Assembly (NCBI GenBank): GCA_008802785.1
Contig: VUYT01000010.1
Span: 124,001 to 188,000, forward strand
Direction of reading: 5' to 3'
DNA: 64,000 nt
From: Symmetrospora coprosmae
Lineage: Eukaryota; Basidiomycota; Cystobasidiomycetes; Symmetrosporaceae
Shown: piece after piece, positions 33,659 to 44,400 of the stretch
Numbering within the stretch: the first letter of the stretch is position 1
Layout: every line of letters begins with the position of its first letter
Program-made: the position numbers and the translations under genes
Notes under the pieces: model-generated
Database searches by the model: none
What the model was told of the DNA's origin: nothing
What the model saw: only the letters and a program-made list of their open reading frames with translations

Positions 33659-35706
33659 ATGTCGTTCGCCTTCGCATGGCCCAGGGCATTCCCGTCCGCG
33701 TTCTACGAGACGGCGCGCAGCAACCTCGAGCAGGCAATGAACTCAGGGAGCAAGCTGCCGTTGGCTGCAGACCGCATCCTCGTCCAGGAGCTTCACCTGG
33801 GCACAATCCCGCCAGAGCTCGACCTGCTCGAGATACACGAGCTCAGCATTGACGGAAGCTTCAGCGGCTCCTTCTTCCTCAGCTACAATGGGAACGCCTA
33901 CATCTCGCTCGTCACTCATCTGCATGTGCGTGTGCCATCTCGTTGCTGCTGTTGCCATGGCGTTACTGCCGCCCGTAGCTGCCACGCTTCGCCGAAGGGA
34001 GGGCTAACGCTGCAATGCCCATCGTCCCCGATACCGAACAGGTCAATCCACTCTCGTCCATCCTCCTCTCAGCAGCGAAAATGATGGTTCAGCTCACGCT
34101 ATCCCAGCTCCGACTGCGCTGCGTCATCTCCGTCTCGTTCAGCAAAGCCTCCGGCCTCACACTCGTCTTCAAGGACGACCCGCTCGAGAGCCTGAACGTG
34201 AGCAGCAGCTTTGACGACATTGGCGTCATCAGCGTCTTCCTGCAGCGCGAGATTGAGAACCAGCTCCGCGAGCGGTTTCGCCGCGACCTGCCCACGCTCA
34301 TCCACAAGCTGTCGCAGCGCTGGGTGGCCGACATCAACAATCAGCCTACCGGTGGCCCATCTGCGCCTATCACGGTCGAGCGGGAGCGTGGCCATTCGTC
34401 AGGGTCAGGCTCGGGCACAGACACGGACACAGACGATGGCGGGAGGGAGCCGGACTCGGACTGGGAGCCAGACGACTCGTTCCTCGAGCCGCCGATGCGC
34501 TCGCAGTACTATGGGGACGGCGAGGAGGAGCGCTCGATGCGAGCACCGTCGCCAGCAGTGTCGAGCGACTCGGACCTCACGCTGTCCGAGGATGAGGATA
34601 CTGCGGACGCAGGGACAGCGCGCAGCTTCAGCTTGGACGGCTTCGGTGCAACGCCACCTCGGAAGCAGCAAATGCATTCAGCAGTGCCGTCGAGCAGCCC
34701 GGCTGGCGATGCGCGCCATCGCATGCCCTCCGCCGGCTCCCCTCAGCGATCCCCGCTTCTTCGCCCACGGCAGCCAAGCGGGACGTCCATCACTGGCTTG
34801 CACAGCACCTCCCCGCATCTGCGGCCTAGGTCTATCATACACTCGCCGACAGCCTCGGTTTCGGGCACTGCAGCGGTGTTCGCATCGTCGCCTCCTGCAG
34901 TGACCGACGCTGCCAGACCAAGCAGTAGCAGCGGGGCAGTCCGACCGCCATACGCCAAGACGCGCTCCCCCTCAGTTTCGGCAACTTCCGCGCCCCGAGT
35001 TCAGAAAGTCGAGCGCATCCGCGCGGCCTCTGCGTCCGGAACAACCTCGAGTGCCACAGCACGGGCAGAATCAGACTCACCCATCCTCCGGTCCCTCCAA
35101 TCGCATCACCAGCATTTCGCCACGACATTCAGCAACCCGATCGAGCGGGGCGCGTCAGCTGATGGTGCCGCCGGTGGCCGGGAGCAGGCGGACGCTCTGC
35201 CTGACCTGACGAGCCTGCTCGGCACCAGTCCAGGCGCCGGCGCCGGTGCAGATGCGAGCGGGTCACTGCGGGCGCGCAGGCGCAGGATCCACAGGCTCGA
35301 CACGCCCAGCCCCAACACCTCGCCGCAGAAACAGGGCGGGAAGGATACAGGCAAGGGGAAAGGGCGCGTGTCATCTGGGAAGGGGGATGAGAACGCCCGT
35401 CCGCGCGTGGCGAGCTTCCGACAAGCCGACTTCGACGAATACTTCCCGGTCTCCGCGCGGGAGCGGCACCTAGAGCATGCGCCTCTGCCCGCCTCGGTCT
35501 CCGCCTCTGCAATGTCGCGCGCGATGCCGGCTCACAAGCAGAAGCAGCCGGATGTGTATGGGTCTGACCGTGCAGCCGGGGCGGCAGGGTGGGCCGAGGG
35601 AAGCCGTCAGCGTTCGGGCAGCACAATGAAGCCCGGCCTGAGGAGAAACATGATGTCAAGCCGGTTGCGCGATCCAAACTTCTTTGCGCCAAACTATCCG
35701 GGGTAG
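33659..35706 (+). CDS. MDM34: ERMES subunit Mdm34 (SMP-domain lipid transfer)
   Basis: Mitochondrial outer-membrane component of the ER-mitochondria encounter structure, which carries phospholipids between the organelles. Reading: join(33659..33925, 34042..35706), 643 aa. The N-terminus MSFAFAWPRAFPSAFYE is the family start, and the SMP domain follows: PLAADRILVQELHLGTIPP, ELDLLEIHELSIDG and FLSYNGNAYISLVTHLH. Across the intron it continues with VNPLSSILLSAAKMM, LTLSQLRLRCVISVSFSK, GLTLVFKDDPLESLNVSSSF and FLQREIENQLRERFRRDLP. The C-terminal 430 residues are Ser/Pro/Asp-rich and disordered, longer than in yeasts, ending in RDPNFFAPNYPG. A decayed copy of this 3' end lies at 37497-37650. Confidence 0.95.
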
Positions 35707-35774
35707 ACCTGGCGGTTTCAGCAAGGCTGCTCGGAATTGCTCATCATCATCTATGTAGCTAGCAGGACACGTAG

Positions 35775-37238
35775 CTATGGGCGATCTTTGGTTCTACGGG
35801 TCGTTGATGCCGACGGACTGGCCTCCCACGGTCTTTTGGGACGAATTGCCCGAGGCACGTTGGATCTGCCACGATTCTCATCTGGCGCAGGCGAACCGCA
35901 CCCCCCGTCGGGCGAAAGCTGGCGCAGCGGTTCCGAGGCGGAAGAAGATGCCGAGAACGAGCGGCGTGTCCTCTCTGCGTCTTCGGGCTTAGCGGCCTCG
36001 ATGATGTCCTTCAGCTTGGTGGTGAAGAAAGGTGTGAGCGACCGATCACGCAGGGCGCGTCCTGTTGATGGTTGGCGAAAGCCCGAAGATTGCGCTGGTG
36101 CGGGCGACTGTCGTAGAGGCGTCGTCGACATGGGCGTCGATGGCCTGGAAGGCAGATACATGGGACTACTTCCTCGAGAAGTGCCGTGTGGCGCACCTGG
36201 CACCTGCATAGCGGACGTGCGATGGTGAGGGGAGGCGCTCATCGAACTGCCGTTCCAAGGGACGCTGAGCGATCTGGGAGCGGGTCGCGTACTGGGTCGA
36301 GTGGGAGGCGGGGCGGAGTGCGATCTGCCGTGGGATGTCCCGGCACTCTTATTCAAAGGCGGGTGCTGCAGTCTGTCTCGGTCCGCCTTCGCTAAATCGA
36401 AGAATTCCAGGCCGGCCGAGAGGTCGGCATCACTCGGTCGGCGGGAGCTACTGCGAGGTCTCGATAACACGAGGGTCTGACCGCCGCTGGTAGCGTCGCT
36501 AGCGTTGAGGTTGAGAAGACTTTTGGCAAGCGGGCTAGGATAGAGGAAGGGATTGCCTAAGAGTGGGACGCTCTTCGGTCTGCCTTGGGGCGAGGGCGAC
36601 TTCCCTGGTGTATTGCCGTAATCGTAGTTCGGGGACATGCTTCGCTGCGGCGCGGGAGACAGGGGTGGAGATGTCGAAGCAGATGCTCCGTCCCTGGCGG
36701 AGTTGTCCTGTGAGCTTTGCTGTCCTGGTCGTCCCCTGAGGGTCTCTGTGCCTCGTCCTACTGAGGGCATCGCCCCTTGTTGAAATGCTTTCTCCTCTTT
36801 GGGTGATCTGCCAGAGTGGTGGCTGTCATAATGCCTGTTGCGCGTGTCAAGTCTCGCAAACCCGAGATCTCCTCCGGCCTTGCTGCGTGCAGCGAGTGCA
36901 TTTGTTAATCGCTTCAGGTACGCTCCCTCTGGCACGCAAATGCGCTGCCTGGGGGATCCGCCCATCCTAAAGGCTCACCAGTCTTTGTGCCTGCACGGAA
37001 AATAAACATCGCCATCTTGCACGTTTGCTTCTGCTCTGTTGCAGTTTCTCTTGTGCAGGGTAAGCCCACCGGTTCGGGTGGAAAAGGGCTTTTTGCTTAT
37101 AGCAGAGAACAAGCCGTGGTCAAATGTCAGGAGGACTGCGACCTCGAGTGCTTGACCATCTGCAGAGAAAGCTCACCAATTGCTACAAGTTTTGATGTAC
37201 TTGCCAGTGACATCCTTTGACTTGCTCGAAGAGGCCAT
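35775..37238 (-). CDS. Zinc-finger array gene 1 (two fingers, Ser/Pro tail)
   Basis: Unrecognised protein, complement(join(35775..36882, 36979..37095, 37177..37238)), 428 aa. Splicing builds finger 1, CSNCKKPFSTRTGG...H-KRN-C (C-X2-C-X13-H-X3-C), and finger 2, CRHKDC then X16 and HYDSHH (C-X4-C-X16-H-X4-H), followed by GRSPKEE. Both introns fall after TG of the second cysteine codon of each finger; C from the next exon completes TGC. The long last exon encodes a Ser/Pro/Arg-rich tail with the motif SLTPFFTTKLKDIIEAAK shared in outline with the other two copies, then basic RPKRPW. Likely nuclear and possibly nucleic-acid binding (inference). Its stop lies 68 bases from the convergent MDM34 stop. 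The first acceptor (ataag) is not a YAG and is the weakest call. Confidence 0.8.
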
Positions 37239-37365
37239 GATTGCGGCGGGGACGCCGGGCAGAGATGCTAGCTGTGGATTGACCAGATTGGTGGTGAACG
37301 AGAGAAGAAGAGGTCACCATCGAGCCAGCTCCGGTCTTGAGTCGACCCGACAGACCCAAGGAAAC

Positions 37366-37480
37366 GGGGGATATGGCTTGTTGGGGCGGTGCCAGAACCT
37401 GGCAGACGGTGGAGGCGCTGCACATCCGCTCTGCGTGTCCCAGAGCGCCGTTCAGCTTGACGTTACCGACAGCAAGGAGC
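37366..37480 (-). repeat. Upstream repeat of zinc-finger gene 1 (copy A)
   Basis: Begins 128 bases before the start of gene 1. Starts gggggatatggcttgttgg on the plus strand and continues ggcggtgccagaacctggc to a ttcagcttgacgttaccga end. Closely matches copy B at 38790 and is more distant from copy C at 40709. On the gene strand it carries a TATA-like CCATATCCCC. It is a probable core-promoter module duplicated with the gene. Confidence 0.75.
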
Positions 37481-37496
37481 GGCACACATAGTACAT

Positions 37497-37650
37497 CCGC
37501 TCGCAAGCAGGCTCTCGAGCGAGAGCAGCTGGTTGCGATACGGCACCGACCGTGAGCTGGCGGTGGCAAGGGAAGGGAAAGCCGTCAGCGTTTGGGGAAG
37601 TCGAGTCGTTTGCGCCGTTGGAACTTCTTTGCGCCGAACTGTCCGGGGTA
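37497..37650 (+). pseudogene. Decayed copy of the MDM34 3' end
   Basis: About 150 bases resemble the last part of MDM34 (about 35536-35706), on the same strand. Matching blocks are gctcgcaagcag with gctcacaagcag, aaagccgtcagcgtttgg with gaagccgtcagcgttcgg, and aacttctttgcgccgaact with aacttctttgcgccaaact, followed by tccggggta in both. About 35-40 bases present in MDM34 are missing from the middle, and no usable frame remains. It lies tail-to-tail with zinc-finger gene 2, just as intact MDM34 lies tail-to-tail with gene 1. It therefore marks the edge of a duplicated segment. Confidence 0.82.
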
Positions 37651-37798
37651 CCAGTAGGGTGACACTGATTCTGCAGGTCACTCTGATTTGCTTGTGAGAC
37701 TCATGCAGCTATATAGGCTCAAGTCATCTATGATTGTCCGCCAGGACGAGTCACTGCGCGTGTCATTCGCTGGTCTGGCGCAGACGACACAGACATCT

Positions 37799-38649
37799 TT
37801 ACGCTCTTCTCGCAGAATTATCCCGCTTCCTCTTGAGCTGCGTGGGACCAATCTGCGCACGTTCCTTATGCAGGCGCGCAGCTGTACGGACGTTGACCAG
37901 GCGTTGAATAGGGTTATCCTTTTCGTCGAAAAGGGCCGTCAGTGCGCGCAATGGTCCAGTATTGTGTGGGTCCGATGCGCTCTGCGGCGTCCTAGCGGAT
38001 CCGGAAGATGACGACGGTCGAGAGGCAGGAGGAGATCTCGTAGTGCTTCGGGGTGGTGTGGCAGACAGAGGTTCCTTTGATTTGGCGCGTCCTCGTTGTT
38101 GCATCTGGCTGCCGGCAACGTACTCTACCGGGCCAGCACGATTATCGTGTAGAGGCCGTTTGGTCTGAGGCGGACATGTCGAGACAGGTTCTTTGGAGGC
38201 TGACCGCAGCTCGCTGGGCGACTGGCCGTCATGTGCCGTGTCGTAATGCTGGTTGCGCCCTCTAGGAAGCCCATAGCCGTACCCGTTTCGGCCGCCGCTG
38301 CATGCAGTGGACAGGCACATGCACACTAGCTCAGCTCCGGCTTGTAAGCGAAGACATCGGGTGCCAGTCTCTCTGCTACGAGCGCCTTGAGCTCACCAAG
38401 CGACGTGCCCGCATGGCCAGGATAACTTGCCGTTGCCGGCTACACGTGCGGGTTCTCTGCCGCAGTAAGTAACGTGACTAGTGTATTCGCCGCCACGGTA
38501 GAGAAGCCACACTCCGCTGTCACAAGGAATCGCAAGCCATTGAGTTAGCCATCAGAGCTGAAACCCGACTCGGCTTAGCGCAAGTGCGCGGACTGTACGC
38601 ACCAGTATGCGCACTGTCCTTGACCGTCATTCTGCCCGTTGCGTGCCAT
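37799..38649 (-). CDS. Zinc-finger array gene 2 (two fingers, short tail)
   Basis: Unrecognised protein, complement(join(37799..38297, 38397..38516, 38603..38649)), 221 aa, the shortest copy. Finger 1 is CAYC then X13 then H-VTY-C; finger 2 is CGHVAC then X16 then HYDTAH, followed by DGQSPSE. Spacings equal those of gene 1 residue for residue although few other residues match, and both introns again split the second cysteine codon as TG^C. The tail has the shared motif RALTALFDEKDNPIQ and ends in a basic LKRKRDNSARRA, a plausible nuclear localisation signal. Exon 2 is 120 nt, as in gene 3. Function unknown. Confidence 0.82.
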
Positions 38650-38789
38650 AGTGAAAGGGCTTGAGGTGTAGGGAGCGTCGGCTGCCCGTGAAGAGATTGG
38701 ATGTAATGGAATGGGATGGAGGAGGTTAAGAGCGGTCAGAGGAAAGCCGGCTAGGTCTGCGTTGACCTGTTTGGAGGCCTCAAAATGAC

Positions 38790-38905
38790 GGGGGATATGG
38801 CTTGTCGGGGCGTTGCCAGAAGCTGGCAGACGGTGGAGGCGCTGCAATCCGCTTTGCTTTTCTCAGGGCATCTGGTCAGCTTGACGTCACCGACAGCAGC
38901 ATGGG
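38790..38905 (-). repeat. Upstream repeat of zinc-finger gene 2 (copy B)
   Basis: Begins 141 bases before the start of gene 2: gggggatatggcttgtcgg then ggcgttgccagaagctggc, ending ggtcagcttgacgtcaccga. Nearly collinear with copy A with a few small insertions and deletions. Confidence 0.75.
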
Positions 38906-39073
38906 CGCCGGGACAGCAGTGACCGGAGAGCGCAGATCATCCAATCACTGTACTCAGCTTGCCGCGACCGTACGGCTTGCTCAGGTGTCTAACGAAGGAG
39001 ACGAGATCTGCTGGCTCAGGATGTCGTATATCGAGTCTGTGGGGACAGCCAGAATGCATAACAGACTATCTGG

Positions 39074-40597
39074 CTACCGCTCTTGATTTCGTTTCTTTGC
39101 ATCTCGTCCGCGCGCTCTCTCGCTTCTTGCAGTGAGGGATGCCGCAGCCTCTGCCACTTCCGGTGGCGTGCCGAGACGCCGCGCCCTCTTTGCTGGGATT
39201 CCAGCAGTGAATGGCGATTCGCCACGTCGCGCCGCGGCTGCAGCCTCGAGCGCTTGCCGGAGAGGATCAGTCTGGAACAAGGGTGTCAGCTCACGGGCAG
39301 GGCGATTTAGGTTGCTCGAGCTGGACGCGCTCCTTGGGATGGGCCGGCCAGAGATCGTTTCTGCTCGACGCGCCCTCCGGCGGGGACGGGATGGGCCCGG
39401 ACTAGGGCTCGGCGACTCGAAAGACCAATCGCTGTGTGTGGAAACGCTCCTTGACGGAAGCGACGGTGCACTAGGCGGGGAAGTGGCCGATCGGGAGCGC
39501 GGAGGCGGCGCGGAGGACGAGACCCTGCTCAGGGCTGCAGTGCTCTGCGGAGTAGTCTGAGGATTATGAAGGCGTCCCCGGCTAGCTGATCGTTCCTGCC
39601 CGGCGTTTCTGACAGGCTGCTTGTTCCGCGCACGGCTGGACTGCGGTGCAGACGCGTTCGGACTGTGGGTGCCGACACGCCTCCGAGCTTGTCGGGGATC
39701 GGGCATGTGCAGCATACTCCCGGACGGCTGATATGATTGACCAGCATGAGTCTTCGCCATGTGACGATTTCGTCCCGCCAGTGTCTCGATATTCTTGTTG
39801 TTGCTATGAGGGCGAGGAATTATGAACGAGTCAGTGCGCATTACGCAGCCTCGTGTCAGCTTGGGCAGTCAGACATGCTGCCCTGCACGCTAGCGGTACG
39901 CACCAGAATGGGCAGGGCCAGTTCTTAATGAACAGGCCTTCTGCTACCGTGATTAGCTTACGCTTGAGATTGGGTCGAATCTCCGTGACCCACGTGGGGC
40001 GCGGGCCTTTCCGACATTCTTCATTCGTGTGCGCCGGCAGCTTGTAAGCGTCCTTCATCGGGAAGCTTTGGTAGCACCATGTACAGGCGGTCGAAGCCTC
40101 TTGAACCTGCGAGTACTGCGACGGGACTTCGCTGGGTGATTTACCATCATGAGCGGTTGCCCAATGCTTGTTGCGCTCGTTGACGGAGGAGAAACCGTGT
40201 TCGCCCCCGTACGTGCTGCACGGGCGAGGCGGAGCATGCACTGGACTCAGCTTGACATCGCAAGTTCTCCAGCCGACGGGAGCAACTCCAGAGCGATACG
40301 CACGCCGGCGAGCAACTCACCAATTATGATGCCTGCAGGGGAAATGCGGCACGCCAGCAGTATCGACGTATGCCTCTGCTCTGCTGCACTGAGTGGAGTG
40401 CTGCGCAAAGGCAGCGTGCTGTACCCTGAAGTACTGCTTGCTGGAGTTTGGTGATCGGGTCAGCCGCTGATGTCGATGTGTAGCTCCAAGCGCCGATTGC
40501 CTCGTCTGTCCACAACCCACCAGTTGTCGCACTGCTCATATGACTCTGCGCGGATCGGCTCGAGAGGGGCTCTGGTCGACGAGGGTGATGACGGCAT
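39074..40597 (-). CDS. Zinc-finger array gene 3 (four fingers by internal duplication)
   Basis: Unrecognised protein, complement(join(39074..39803, 39904..40215, 40321..40440, 40521..40597)), 412 aa. Finger 1: CDNC, X13, H-STQ-C. Finger 2: CRHHNC, X16, HWATAH, then DGKSPSE. Finger 3: CTWC, X14, H-TNEE-C, inside an exon. Finger 4: CPFC, X13, HMAKTH, then AGQSYQP. Fingers 3-4 look like a second copy of the 1-2 unit. All three introns split the second cysteine codon of fingers 1, 2 and 4 as TG^C. The tail is Ser/Pro/Arg-rich with the shared RELTPLFQTDPLRQAL motif and basic AKRARR and AKKRNQER. It could be mistaken for two separate genes without splicing; phases and lengths support one. Confidence 0.8.
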
Positions 40598-40708
40598 CGG
40601 ATAGGGTCAGCTGCAGAGCGATGGTATGGCTGCATCAAGTGTGTGGAAAGAGAAGAGCAGTCAGAACAGAGCAGGACCTTGGCAGGCCCTGACGAGCCTC
40701 AAGGACGC

Positions 40709-40825
40709 GGGGGATATATATGTCTTGTCGGGGCGATGCAAAAGCTGCCGGACACTTCAGGCGCTGCGCATCCGCTCTAGGTTTCCCAGGACATCCAAGG
40801 GCACTCTGAGCGAGCAGCGACACCA
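40709..40825 (-). repeat. Upstream repeat of zinc-finger gene 3 (copy C)
   Basis: Begins 112 bases before the start of gene 3: gggggatatatatgtcttg then tcggggcgatgcaaaagctg and caggcgctgcgcatccgctc. More diverged than copies A and B but in the same order and orientation. On the gene strand it carries a fuller TATA-like CATATATATCCCC. Confidence 0.68.
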
Positions 40826-41404
40826 GCTTAAGCATATCGCAGGGCGTCTCCAAGGTGCGTTACTTGGAGGATGAGGGGCTTCATGGTCTCATCATCGTGC
40901 GCAATCCCGAGCGCGCAAAGCTGGTGCAAGGATCAGGACATTGACGCGGTCGCGCATTGTGCGAGGACAACGAGAAGATGAACGGCAGCTGTCCGTGCAG
41001 TTTGATGTCATTGTGTGCATGTACGTGTGCGTGTTTGGGTTCGCGCGTCTTCTACGGTGGACCGGCGAGAGCGAGCGAGCACCCCCTTTTCCGCCTCCGC
41101 CTCCGCGTGCATGTCGAGAAGGAGGACTGTGCTGGTGTGCTGCTGCGGGTCGGGTCGAGGATAATCCTCCTCTTCCACTCAGCGATCACCCACCCACCAC
41201 CCACCACCACCACCACGTTCCTTTTCATTGTTTTGGCATATCGAATCGCATTGCATCGACTCTGCGTGCATATTGCCATCTGCAGGCCATTCGCAGTTGC
41301 TGGGCTCGCAGCAGGTGCAGGAAGGGGGGGCCACAGCGGAGTGCAGGAGAGAGGGAGGAGGAGCAACCACACGTCGAACAGGATTCGGCAGGATTGCTCA
41401 TAGC

Positions 41405-41432
41405 GCACACATACACACATACACACACACAC
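41405..41432 (+). repeat. CA-rich microsatellite at the MSB2 start
   Basis: acacatacacacatacacacacacacac runs up to the ATG at 41434 and so must lie in the 5' UTR or core promoter of MSB2. Confidence 0.9.
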
Positions 41433-41433
41433 G

Positions 41434-44400
41434 ATGCCATCGCGGCGCACTCGCCCTCGCCCTCGCCCTGGTCAGGCTCGCTGGCCATGGCGCTCGTCGC
41501 TGGCCCTCGCCGCTGCGGTGCTCGTCGCATTGACCTCGGCAACAGCGACGACATACGCACTCGAGCCGCCATCCAACAACAACAAGAGCCTGTTCAGCGC
41601 AAACGGTGCTGAATCTGCACACAACCACGGGTTCCGTGTCGGGCTGCGAAAGGCAAAGACGTTTGGCAGCCATGTCGCTGTAGGGGCCGCGAACGGCGGC
41701 GGCGTCGTCCATGCGCGTGCCGCCGCCGCCGCGAGGAAGGGCGCAAACAGGCGGCAGGCCCTCGACATCGAGGTCATTGGCGACCTGCTCGGCGTGCAGC
41801 TCGACGCGGATGGACAGCCTGCAGTCGTCACTGTCGGCTTGGAGGAGATCTTTGCCGTCGACCCCAACAGTGACGGGTTGGTCACCTCGGGCAGCGTGCA
41901 CAGGACAGAGACGGCCGTCGTCACGTACACGACCAGGATCAACGAGAATGAGACGAGTGAGTGGAAGGGATACGAGACGCGAGGAGATCTCATGAGCGAC
42001 GCAAAAGGGTGTCCGCGCCGTTCATGGTCATTGCGGGACATTCTGTCGCTGGCTGCGGCCTCGGCTCCCCAGAGCTCTCTGTTTGGGTCTGGCGCGTGCA
42101 TGCGAGAGCGTGCGGGCTGCAGCGGGGACGGGCGGACAAGCTGGCAACTGGAAAGAGCTCCTGGCTGATATAATCATGCACTGTGTTTGCTCGCTTTCAG
42201 GAACCGTCACCTCGACCCAGGTCATCACAGTCGTGCCGACACCCTCGGCCGAGCCATCCTCGTCGTCTTCGCGCTCGAGCAGCTCGCCCGCCTTTTCGCC
42301 GTCCCCGGAGCCGTCTTCGAGCAGCAGCAGCAGCAGAGCGGCGGTCACATTCACCCCCTCGTCGTCGTCCGCTAGCCCATCTTCCACCCGAGAAGCAGCC
42401 TCGTCGGCCGACAACGATGCATCAAGGGAACCTCTGTCCAGCTCGAGCTCGAGCTCCAGTAGCTCCAGCAGCAGCAGCAGCTCGGCTAGCACCAAGGCAT
42501 CATCCTCGGCAGACGACTCTGAGTCGGAGACCGTGACGCCGTCGTTATCGTTGTCGGCCTCGACGCCCTCGTCAAGCTCCTCCAGCTCGAGCAGCTCCGA
42601 GCGCGAGCCCGAGCCAGAGACCACCGCCGAGGCGTTCCGCACCTCGCCCATCACCGTCGTCACCAGCCCTTCGAGCTCAGCCTTGAGCTCAAGCTCGGCC
42701 AGCGAGGCGGACCCAATCATCTCGCTCAGCGTGGACGTGCCCATTCTCAGCCCATCGTCGACGCCCATCCTCTCCACCCAGACGCAGGAGCCCGAGCCGT
42801 CCAGCACCAGCGCTAGTGCGAGTATTGAGAGCGCCTCTTCTGCGCAGCCCGCGTCGTCAGCCACCACGTCGGCGAGCGAGGCGGCCGCCAGCAGCAGCAG
42901 CAGCAGCAGCGTCGCATCTGTGCCCGAAAGCTCGAGCGCATCTAGCAGGGTTAACGAGCCCTCCTCCACTGCCGGCGAGGCTATTCCTTCGCCTTCTTCA
43001 TCGTCAAATGGCACCGGGAGCTCCGCATCCTCTGTTGCATCTGCGCCTTCCGTCCTCGCTTCGTCCGCTGAAGCCCCTCCTTCGGCCGTCACGTCGAATG
43101 TCCTCGACGTCACATTGACTGCCTCCTCAGCGGCACCGACGGCCGTCACGTCCAACATTGTCGACTTCCCCTCGTCCTCGTCTCTGCGGGCGAGCGAGAG
43201 CGGCAGTGGTAGCGCCACGACCACGCGACTGCCACTCGAAGGGATCAGCTCGTCGGCAGCGTCAGGCAGCTCGTCAGAGCCGGCATCGATCTCGAGCTCG
43301 AGCTCGAGCTCGGGCTTACTTGACCCCATCTCATCCATCGTCTCGTCCATCGACTCGGAGGTCTCTTCTGCCGTCTCGTCGGTCCTCACGGGCGGATCGT
43401 CAAGCTTGGCCTTGGACTCGACTCCGTACAGCCAGCAGCAGCCGTCCTCGGCCTCCAGTGGGTCAAGCTCCTCTGCTGCTACAGTCACCGCGGGAAGCGG
43501 GTCTTCCTCTGCCTTCGGGTCGAGCACGCTCAGCACCCGCCCGGCCCTCGAGCCGACCTCGACCGGGATCGTCGAGCCTACTCAGCCTACCGGGAACAAT
43601 GGCACATCGTCTTCCATCTACACTGAGCCTGAAGTGACGGGTCGGCCAAGCACCACCGGCACAAATGAGGGCTCGTCCGGCACTTCGACCGTCGTGGACA
43701 CGCCTTCCTCGAGGCCGCCAGTGACAAACGAGACTACAACGTCCTACCCGCGCCCGCAGGAGACGACATCCGTCATTGACAGCCAGACTGGAGGCAACAA
43801 CGCCACTGTCACTACTGGCACGCGCGTGTCGGACAGCCAGAATGCCACAACGTCAGCGGTCGGTTCGAGCGAAGCCACGTCCACTGCGCAGTCGGCGACC
43901 ACTCGCGTCAACGGCACGGCTGTCGTGTCGGAGACTGAGTCGACGAGTGCCAACGCCACCGCGATCGAGAGTTCATCGACGGGCACAGCCACGAGCGAGT
44001 GAGTCTGCCGTTGCGTTTCCTGCACAAGCCCGAGCAATGAGCGTGGCTGACTATCCCTGCGTGCTAGCCCATACTCGTGGGTGCCCACCTCGACGCTGCT
44101 TTGGAACACGCGCACCCTCTCGCGCGAGACAAGCGAGACGGTCACGTCTGAAGATCCATCCGCGACTGACGCGACGCGCACGGGATCGGCCGCGTCCACC
44201 TCGTCCGCCGTGGCCTTCCCGTCCGAGTGGCCGTCCGTCATTGTCCCCGTCACGCCGCTCACGACCGTGCCAAAAGGGTACACGCTCATCAGCATCCTCT
44301 TCACCGACGCAATGTCGTGGCCGTGGCTCATGACGAACGGCGATGCCTCTGGACAGATCTTTGCGTACATGCCGGAACTCATTGCCACGCCGCTCAATAT

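Follow-up and report, generated by a model that had tools for sequence, protein, structure and literature searches.

Three adjacent zinc-finger genes of Symmetrospora coprosmae as probable short members of an old family built from finger pairs

Do three neighbouring genes that share an unusual pair of zinc fingers make up a small and recent family of their own, or are they part of something larger and older? The question arises in a 64,000-nucleotide stretch of the basidiomycete Symmetrospora coprosmae (Cystobasidiomycetes; GenBank assembly GCA_008802785.1, contig VUYT01000010.1, positions 124,001 to 188,000), here called the window, where three minus-strand genes, A, B and C, lie side by side. 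An earlier note, made from the sequence alone, had taken them for the tandem array of an unrecognised, young and rapidly evolving nuclear family. The analysis reported here leaves the genes and their fingers standing, revises their age and affiliation, and leads us to consider it rather probable, on sequence evidence, that A, B and C belong, as its short members, to an old family of nuclear regulators, which would bind nucleic acid through the helices of their C2H2 fingers and use their tails for nuclear import and contacts with partners.

Each of the three genes consists of a single open frame once its exons are joined across GT-AG introns, and the region runs from the start codon of A (40597) to the stop codon of C (35775). 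The module types M1 and M2 given here are those of the module tree described further on.

40597-39074, minus strand: gene A, 412 amino acids; exons 40597-40521, 40440-40321, 40215-39904 and 39803-39074; modules M1 and M2 (four fingers)
38649-37799, minus strand: gene B, 221 amino acids; exons 38649-38603, 38516-38397 and 38297-37799; M1 only
37238-35775, minus strand: gene C, 428 amino acids; exons 37238-37177, 37095-36979 and 36882-35775; M1 only

Three spliced genes with the finger pair that had been described are thereby confirmed: CX2CX13HX3C followed by CX4CX16HX4H, taken literally and with 5-40 residues between the fingers, occurs once in each of A, B and C, and G-x-S-P follows the pair in all three. 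The picture of a two-finger protein does not survive, as the unit is a pair, of which a gene can contain as many as seven copies, and A itself has four fingers, its additional pair after M1 being spaced CX2CX14HX4C and CX2CX13HX4H. The Ser/Pro/Arg tails with basic clusters that the note had reported were found in A, B and C; the clusters lie near the C-terminus (e.g. KRKR, KRAR, KKAR, KRPRR), and a C-terminal stretch outside the fingers is common to A, B and C (RELTPLF, RALTALF and RSLTPFF respectively, then basic residues). In BLASTP comparisons within a seven-sequence set, the window genes match one another with expect values of 3e-18 (A-C), 4e-12 (A-B) and 9e-10 (B-C). No further family members were found within the window, where A, B and C alone score as modules and the next best segment reached 13 bits, and a scan of positions 35000-41500 with Rfam gave no RNA family at an expect value of 0.1.

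What is it that these genes share? The unit is a C2HC finger followed by a C2H2 finger; the linker between them closes in most cases with an aromatic residue and Pro-Cys. We aligned 20 such modules from A-C and from five further genes, D to H, introduced below (A1, A2, B1, C1, D2, E1, F1-F7, G1-G4 and H1-H3, the number giving the position in the gene; E2, D1 and D3 were omitted). All eight ligands, and with them one arginine (Arg59, three residues before the first His), are invariant in 20 of 20 modules at a mean column identity of 33%, and the fixed metal ligands of the earlier note thus extend to the whole alignment. The exact spacing it emphasised holds for module 1 of A-C and fails as a mark of the family, since it varies in E-H: the same literal pattern is missing from E-H and from residues 1-146 of D, and in finger 2 the distance between the Cys pair and the His pair is X12 in 11 of 20 modules as scored by script, or in 12 if F2 is read again by eye, and 13-29 in the rest.

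Because the modules had been chosen partly by their ligands, a separate profile test on the window was needed. A half-profile of the C2HC finger, built from D-H, placed the four half-modules of A (two), C and B at ranks 1-4 of 1870 six-frame window segments, with scores of 28.5, 15.9, 13.7 and 11.8 bits; the maximum in 20 shuffled windows was 12.2, and B (11.8) alone falls below it. With the half-profile of the second finger A came first at 21.4 bits and B second at 10.7, while C (8.0) and the last finger of A (6.4) lie within noise, the shuffled maximum being 13.0. As profiles made outside the window rank the C2HC half-modules of A, B and C first, a chance pattern can be rejected.

The array is real, as claimed, but it is not the whole family, which comprises at least eight genes (A-H) at four places of the 20.05 Mb assembly. 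Eight is a lower limit, given that the genome search read exons singly, used single queries and scored the best candidates. The four places lie on two sequences of the assembly, C1, which holds the window, and C2:

C1:159.8-164.6 kb: array A-C, the window locus
C1:237-249.8 kb: genes F and G, reached from gene E (expect value 1e-4)
C1:266.5-269.6 kb: gene H, reached from G (expect value 2e-21)
C2:416.8-421.4 kb: genes D and E (array 2), reached from a weak match of A on C2 (expect value 0.002)

Across places, BLASTP within the same set gave 4e-21 for A-G, over both modules, 2e-9 for C-F, 1e-9 for E-G and 1e-8 for B-G. The seven fully modelled genes carry from one to seven finger pairs, with seven in the 1419 amino acids of F, four in the 923 of G, three in the 849 of H and two in the 462 of E. 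Among the weaker genome matches, one (C1:240071) proved real, being gene G; loci on C44, C11 and C7 were rejected, having no module at 7 bits, and matches on C40 and C33 were left outside the count. Gene finding by codon usage stopped early or overran real stops and was therefore replaced; H was corrected by hand, and module 5 of F was read by eye.

The larger genes show some features of their own. After several modules of F, G and H there is a conserved stretch, DPRKR-[FL]-G ... W ... NA-[GR]-W, recognised by eye. Modules 5 and 6 of F are separated by a 1.2 kb exon (C1:247089-245857) with a long Ser/Pro-rich stretch, which gives the impression of a fusion of two family genes. Intron 1 of H (C1:266577) would be of GC-AG type, instead of having a GT start, if the model is right. 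In gene D (C2:416804-417470 and downstream) the modelled frame stops at C2:417470, where a donor site is expected, and a further module lies downstream; D has possibly decayed.

A tree of the modules, in which E2 replaces D2, recovers groups that follow position in the gene: M1 (A1, B1, C1, F1, G1, E1, E2), M2 (A2, F2, G2), M3 (F3, G3, H1, H2) and M4 (F5, G4, H3), with supports from 0.24 to 0.94. By type, A consists of M1 and M2, B and C of M1, G of M1-M4, F of M1-M7 and H of M3-M4. Since the tree groups modules by position, the most natural reading of A, B and C is as short forms, and the stability of module positions across genes points, on tree support that is moderate to weak, to gain and loss of modules.

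If the family is older and larger than supposed, is it also foreign to known fingers? No Pfam cut-off was passed by A, B, C or the scanned stretches of E, F and G, and NCBIfam, a prokaryote library, gave two weak matches only. Taken singly, 8 of the 20 modules match zf-C2H2_4 (best expect value 6e-4) and 5 match zf-C2H2 (best 1e-3); the best of these corresponds to an inferred score of about 20 bits against a cut-off of 27, bit scores being listed for the first module only. Compared with chains of solved structure, the module profile matches GLI (2e-7), TFIIIA (3e-4) and ZIC3 (1e-3), values that are sums over weak fingers, mostly finger 2, the best single GLI finger reaching 9e-4. To call the fingers unrecognised is therefore no longer apt. 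Judged by their sequence, the modules are members of the classical C2H2 superfamily with a fixed C2HC partner, and the family would be built from pairs of zinc fingers of the classical type, C2HC first and C2H2 second. The likeness to TFIIIA, GLI and ZIC lies in C-x2/4-C-x12-H-x4-H, in the Phe and in the R-x-x-H helix end of many second fingers, and the zinc ligands C, C, H, H of finger 2 are kept in 20 of 20 modules; the differences are the pairing of C2HC with C2H2, the 16-residue loop in A-C and a Pfam cut-off that was not seen passed.

Two narrower affiliations were considered and rejected. First, a finger of the MYST C2HC type is suggested by the spacing and following residues of module 3 of F, which scores 22.3 bits with zf-MYST; the cut-off is 28.8 bits, and no acetyltransferase domain was found in the scanned part of F (548 of 1419 amino acids). 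Second, tCWCH2 pairs (Zic/Gli, PacC, Zap1, Aebp2) are likewise two adjacent fingers acting as a unit, and some second fingers of D and E read C-x-W-x2-C. A Trp in both Cys pairs defines these pairs, and the loose published form of the pattern was found in none of the eight proteins, D being represented by its first 146 residues (PMC2837044).

This bears on the alternative that ranks next after our own reading, namely that the paired fingers contact protein or RNA, the two packing as one unit as in Gli, Zic and Zap1, and that the genes encode nuclear scaffolds or RNA-processing factors. Such a role would suit the long linkers between both fingers, the W...NA.W stretch after modules in F-H, the absence of TGEKP linkers and the replacement of the usual helix Leu. 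However, most of the best matches among solved structures are DNA-binding fingers (GLI, TFIIIA, ZIC3), even if TFIIIA binds RNA as well and the Arg recurs in GLI finger 4 and ZIC3, and the pair of Trp residues typical of the packed Gli/Zic unit is lacking in seven proteins and in the tested part of D. We regard contact with protein or RNA as a possibility of a tentative kind, and an unlikely one.

How old, then, is the family of putative regulators? Among 17 module pairs, synonymous divergence (dS) was 1.1-2.5 in nine and not correctable in eight, which places synonymous sites near or beyond saturation and rules out a young family. The introns of A, B and C are alike at about the level of shuffled sequence, with a slight excess for intron 2 in pairs involving A (75-76% versus 71-72% shuffled) and none for B-C (68-70% versus 73%); intron 1 of F and G stands at 78% versus 71%. 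The low identity in the rest of the protein is genuine, but fast change driven by selection is not what the substitutions indicate: the ratio of nonsynonymous to synonymous change (dN/dS) is 0.18-0.67 in the nine computable pairs, ratios that are rough at such dS, and there is no sign of positive selection in these module comparisons. From its sequences, the family looks old and under constraint.

The same data speak to the idea of a genome-conflict family, diversifying, as vertebrate KRAB zinc-finger genes do, so as to keep mobile DNA or a selfish driver silent. KRAB clusters consist of clustered genes that gain and lose fingers, and the tandem arrays, the few relatives in the searches made and the strong divergence outside the ligands all recall them. 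But dN/dS stays within the range just given while silent sites are near saturation, and the positions of the finger-2 helix that usually contact DNA are no more variable than the others, with a mean entropy of 2.63 bits versus 2.61 at other variable positions. There was no match to a KRAB domain in the scanned parts (A, B, C and stretches of E, F and G), and, while the fingers of KRAB genes normally lie within one exon, nearly every finger here is split by an intron. We therefore judge a role in genome conflict improbable, and return to that of an old regulator family.

The split itself is the most regular feature of the gene models. Cys pairs are cut after base two of the last Cys codon (TG/C or TG/T, phase 2, the slash marking the intron) in 38 of 40 cases across the seven modelled genes, by hand count 3 of 4 in A, 2 of 2 in B, 2 of 2 in C, 3 of 4 in E, 14 of 14 in F, 8 of 8 in G and 6 of 6 in H; D was omitted, since a stop closes its modelled frame at the expected place of the following donor. 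Conversely, 38 of the 41 introns in the models lie at TG/C or TG/T. The exceptions are the third finger of A, which has no intron, and the fourth finger of E, cut one codon farther on. The two remaining introns are placed in the long module-2 linkers of F and G, where this additional phase-2 intron has no counterpart in A2. As the model program favours such introns, a count independent of the models was made. The motif 'Cys pair + TG/GTRNG' occurs 34 times in sense orientation at the four places, against an expectation of 0.6, and never in antisense orientation; the remaining 59 kb of the window contain eight such sites on both strands, and by eye, on the first acceptors listed, none of these eight showed finger halves.

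In the gene models an internal exon thus joins the rear half of a finger to the front half of the following one. Being of phase 2 at both ends, such exons can be duplicated or lost with the reading frame intact, and the phase-2 introns in the last Cys codon would have allowed whole exons to be gained or lost in this way. The arrangement is not exclusive to the family, as it has the same position in a gene that adjoins array 2:

C2 ~423.5-421.8 kb, minus strand: three-finger C2H2 gene, Pfam zf-C2H2 at 56 bits

Phase-2 introns interrupt two fingers of this gene (C2:421967 and 421826), exactly at the base of the Cys codon that is used in the family, and its last finger is of the C2HC kind. The finger style of the gene presumably recalls that of fungal Swi5/Ace2. 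As a sequence relative it was rejected (BLASTP expect value 0.05 or worse; 11.0 bits summed with the family profile, best stretch 4.5). A gene of this type could be the source of the family; equally, the position could be one where introns often settle.

A further link between the genes is found upstream of them. In the window the shared DNA comprises:

40726..40740, minus strand: core of the upstream element before A, TGCATCGCCCCGACA
38803..38817, minus strand: core before B, GGCAACGCCCCGACA
37379..37393, minus strand: core before C, GGCACCGCCCCAACA
38788..38846, minus strand: 59-base promoter block before B, 95% identical to the block before C
37364..37422, minus strand: 59-base promoter block before C, partner of the block before B

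Over 220 bp upstream, identity is 83% for B-C (71% shuffled), 83% for G-H (73%), 80% for A-B (72%) and 77% for A-C (73%), and the D-E pair reaches 81% over about 400 bp. The nearest 220 bp of F and G are no better than shuffled sequence (71% versus 72%); their likeness lies farther out, with 78% versus 71% at 400-620 bp and 73% over 450 bp overall. Between places, A and H share 42 bp at 81% (expect value 1e-5), with weaker matches for B-H, C-H and A-G. The resulting element of about 42 bp is clear before A, B, C and H and partly kept before G and F, and in A, B, C, F and H its core, KGCAHCGCCCCRACA, lies some 143-183 bp upstream of the start codon. In the 20 Mb genome this core has six sites, five of which belong to its source genes, and the reversed pattern has none; as the core was drawn from those five family promoters, the finding is its rarity elsewhere and not its presence there. 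The sixth site (C55) was rejected as a family promoter, since it falls within the final part of a reading frame that is unrelated and has no modules. The element may keep the family genes under common control, a role suggested by the likeness of the promoters.

The neighbouring genes offer a glimpse of how the arrays may have grown. Two features of the window are relevant:

33979..35706, plus strand: last exon of a convergent MDM34-like neighbour with named MDM34 relatives
37598..37657, plus strand: relic of the MDM34-like tail between C and B, 80% identical to the true tail over 54 bases

The best named relative of the MDM34-like gene is from Cystobasidium minutum (63%), which, as far as a single gene can tell, agrees with a host among the Cystobasidiomycetes or their close kin, and Pfam gave nothing on its reading frame at an expect value of 0.001. 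Translated, the relic reads KSSRLRRWNFFAPNCPGYQ and the true tail MSSRLRDPNFFAPNYPG, each followed by a stop. Between D and E there is likewise a second copy of the tail of a neighbouring gene, which we take to be Pin1-like, ending ...EPDSGVHLIPRTA versus ...ETDSGVHLILRTA, again each before a stop. Going by its sequence, the MDM34-like relic is a footprint of duplication, and tail relics at two of the four places show that the copied unit there began inside the neighbour gene; the arrays would accordingly have grown by tandem copying, with the neighbour's 3' end as part of the unit. That several members are decaying copies, no longer made as full proteins, might be argued from these relics, which show that the loci collect broken copies, and from D, whose module lies beyond the stop at C2:417470, but it is highly improbable, for A, B, C, E, F, G and H are modelled with open frames of up to 1419 amino acids, all ligands and splice signals, and those frames persist despite near-saturated silent sites.

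Is the family found elsewhere? Among 5.8 billion proteins only two relatives of A-C were identified, P0001 and P0002, in searches that used A-C alone as queries, one of which scored the 8000 candidates sharing most words, such that a relative must share exact words. As a control, the MDM34-like neighbour gave 50 relatives in the same collection, so annotated fungi are covered. P0001 is 97-98% identical to C. P0002 is about 50% identical to C in the tail, and its best match in the genome is C, at 56%. Together they suggest that C is probably present in at least one other species, and the family would probably be restricted to a Cystobasidiomycete-like lineage. The literature searched, which lay mostly outside subscription journals, contained no description of such a family and little on regulators in this class of fungi. 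A 2025 survey of basidiomycete C2H2 genes mentions PF00096 once, describes a tendency towards singletons in two species of Pucciniomycotina and does not contain the word start Cystobasidi (PMC12295980).

Taken together, these observations are most consistent with an old family of regulators in which the helices of the C2H2 fingers would bind DNA and the basic, Ser/Pro-rich tails would serve nuclear import and contacts with partners. Several points weigh against this. Instead of the Leu that is usual at helix position 4 of classical fingers, finger 2 has Arg in 20 of 20 modules, and the family is without TGEKP linkers; that GLI finger 4 and ZIC3 also carry this Arg in alignments means that the core-Leu criterion is not strict. 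The predicted structure of one exon of A (103 amino acids, covering four alignment rows) is poor, with a mean predicted local distance difference test (pLDDT) of 40.4 and a predicted template modelling score (pTM) of 0.25, and support in the module tree goes down to 0.24. Every exon join is inferred, by a program built to favour TG/[CT] introns. The pair F-G contradicts the generalisation that upstream DNA was kept and introns lost, as its first introns are alike (78%) and its near upstream DNA is at the shuffled level. Finally, the core of the upstream element is degenerate before G and was not seen before D or E.

A more ambitious extension of this reading can also be formulated. Zinc-finger repertoires are usually explained by the copying of whole fingers inside one long exon. 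In the present family, half-finger exon cassettes may instead, whenever an exon is gained, lost or exchanged, make new chimeric fingers that keep every ligand, the ancestor may have been a conventional intron-split C2H2 gene like the one next to array 2, and the family may regulate itself through its private promoter element. We think this combination unlikely; self-regulation would mean that one member binds the family's promoter element, with GCANCGCCCCGACA as the candidate site. The recombining unit appears to be a half finger, fixed by intron phase, which would make exon shuffling within a metal-binding domain open to test. The promoter block retained in A-C, where silent sites and most introns are at background, provides a direct handle on co-regulation. 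And as the family seems to lie below the Pfam cut-offs, surveys of C2H2 genes that rely on Pfam (PF00096) would probably miss genes of this kind.

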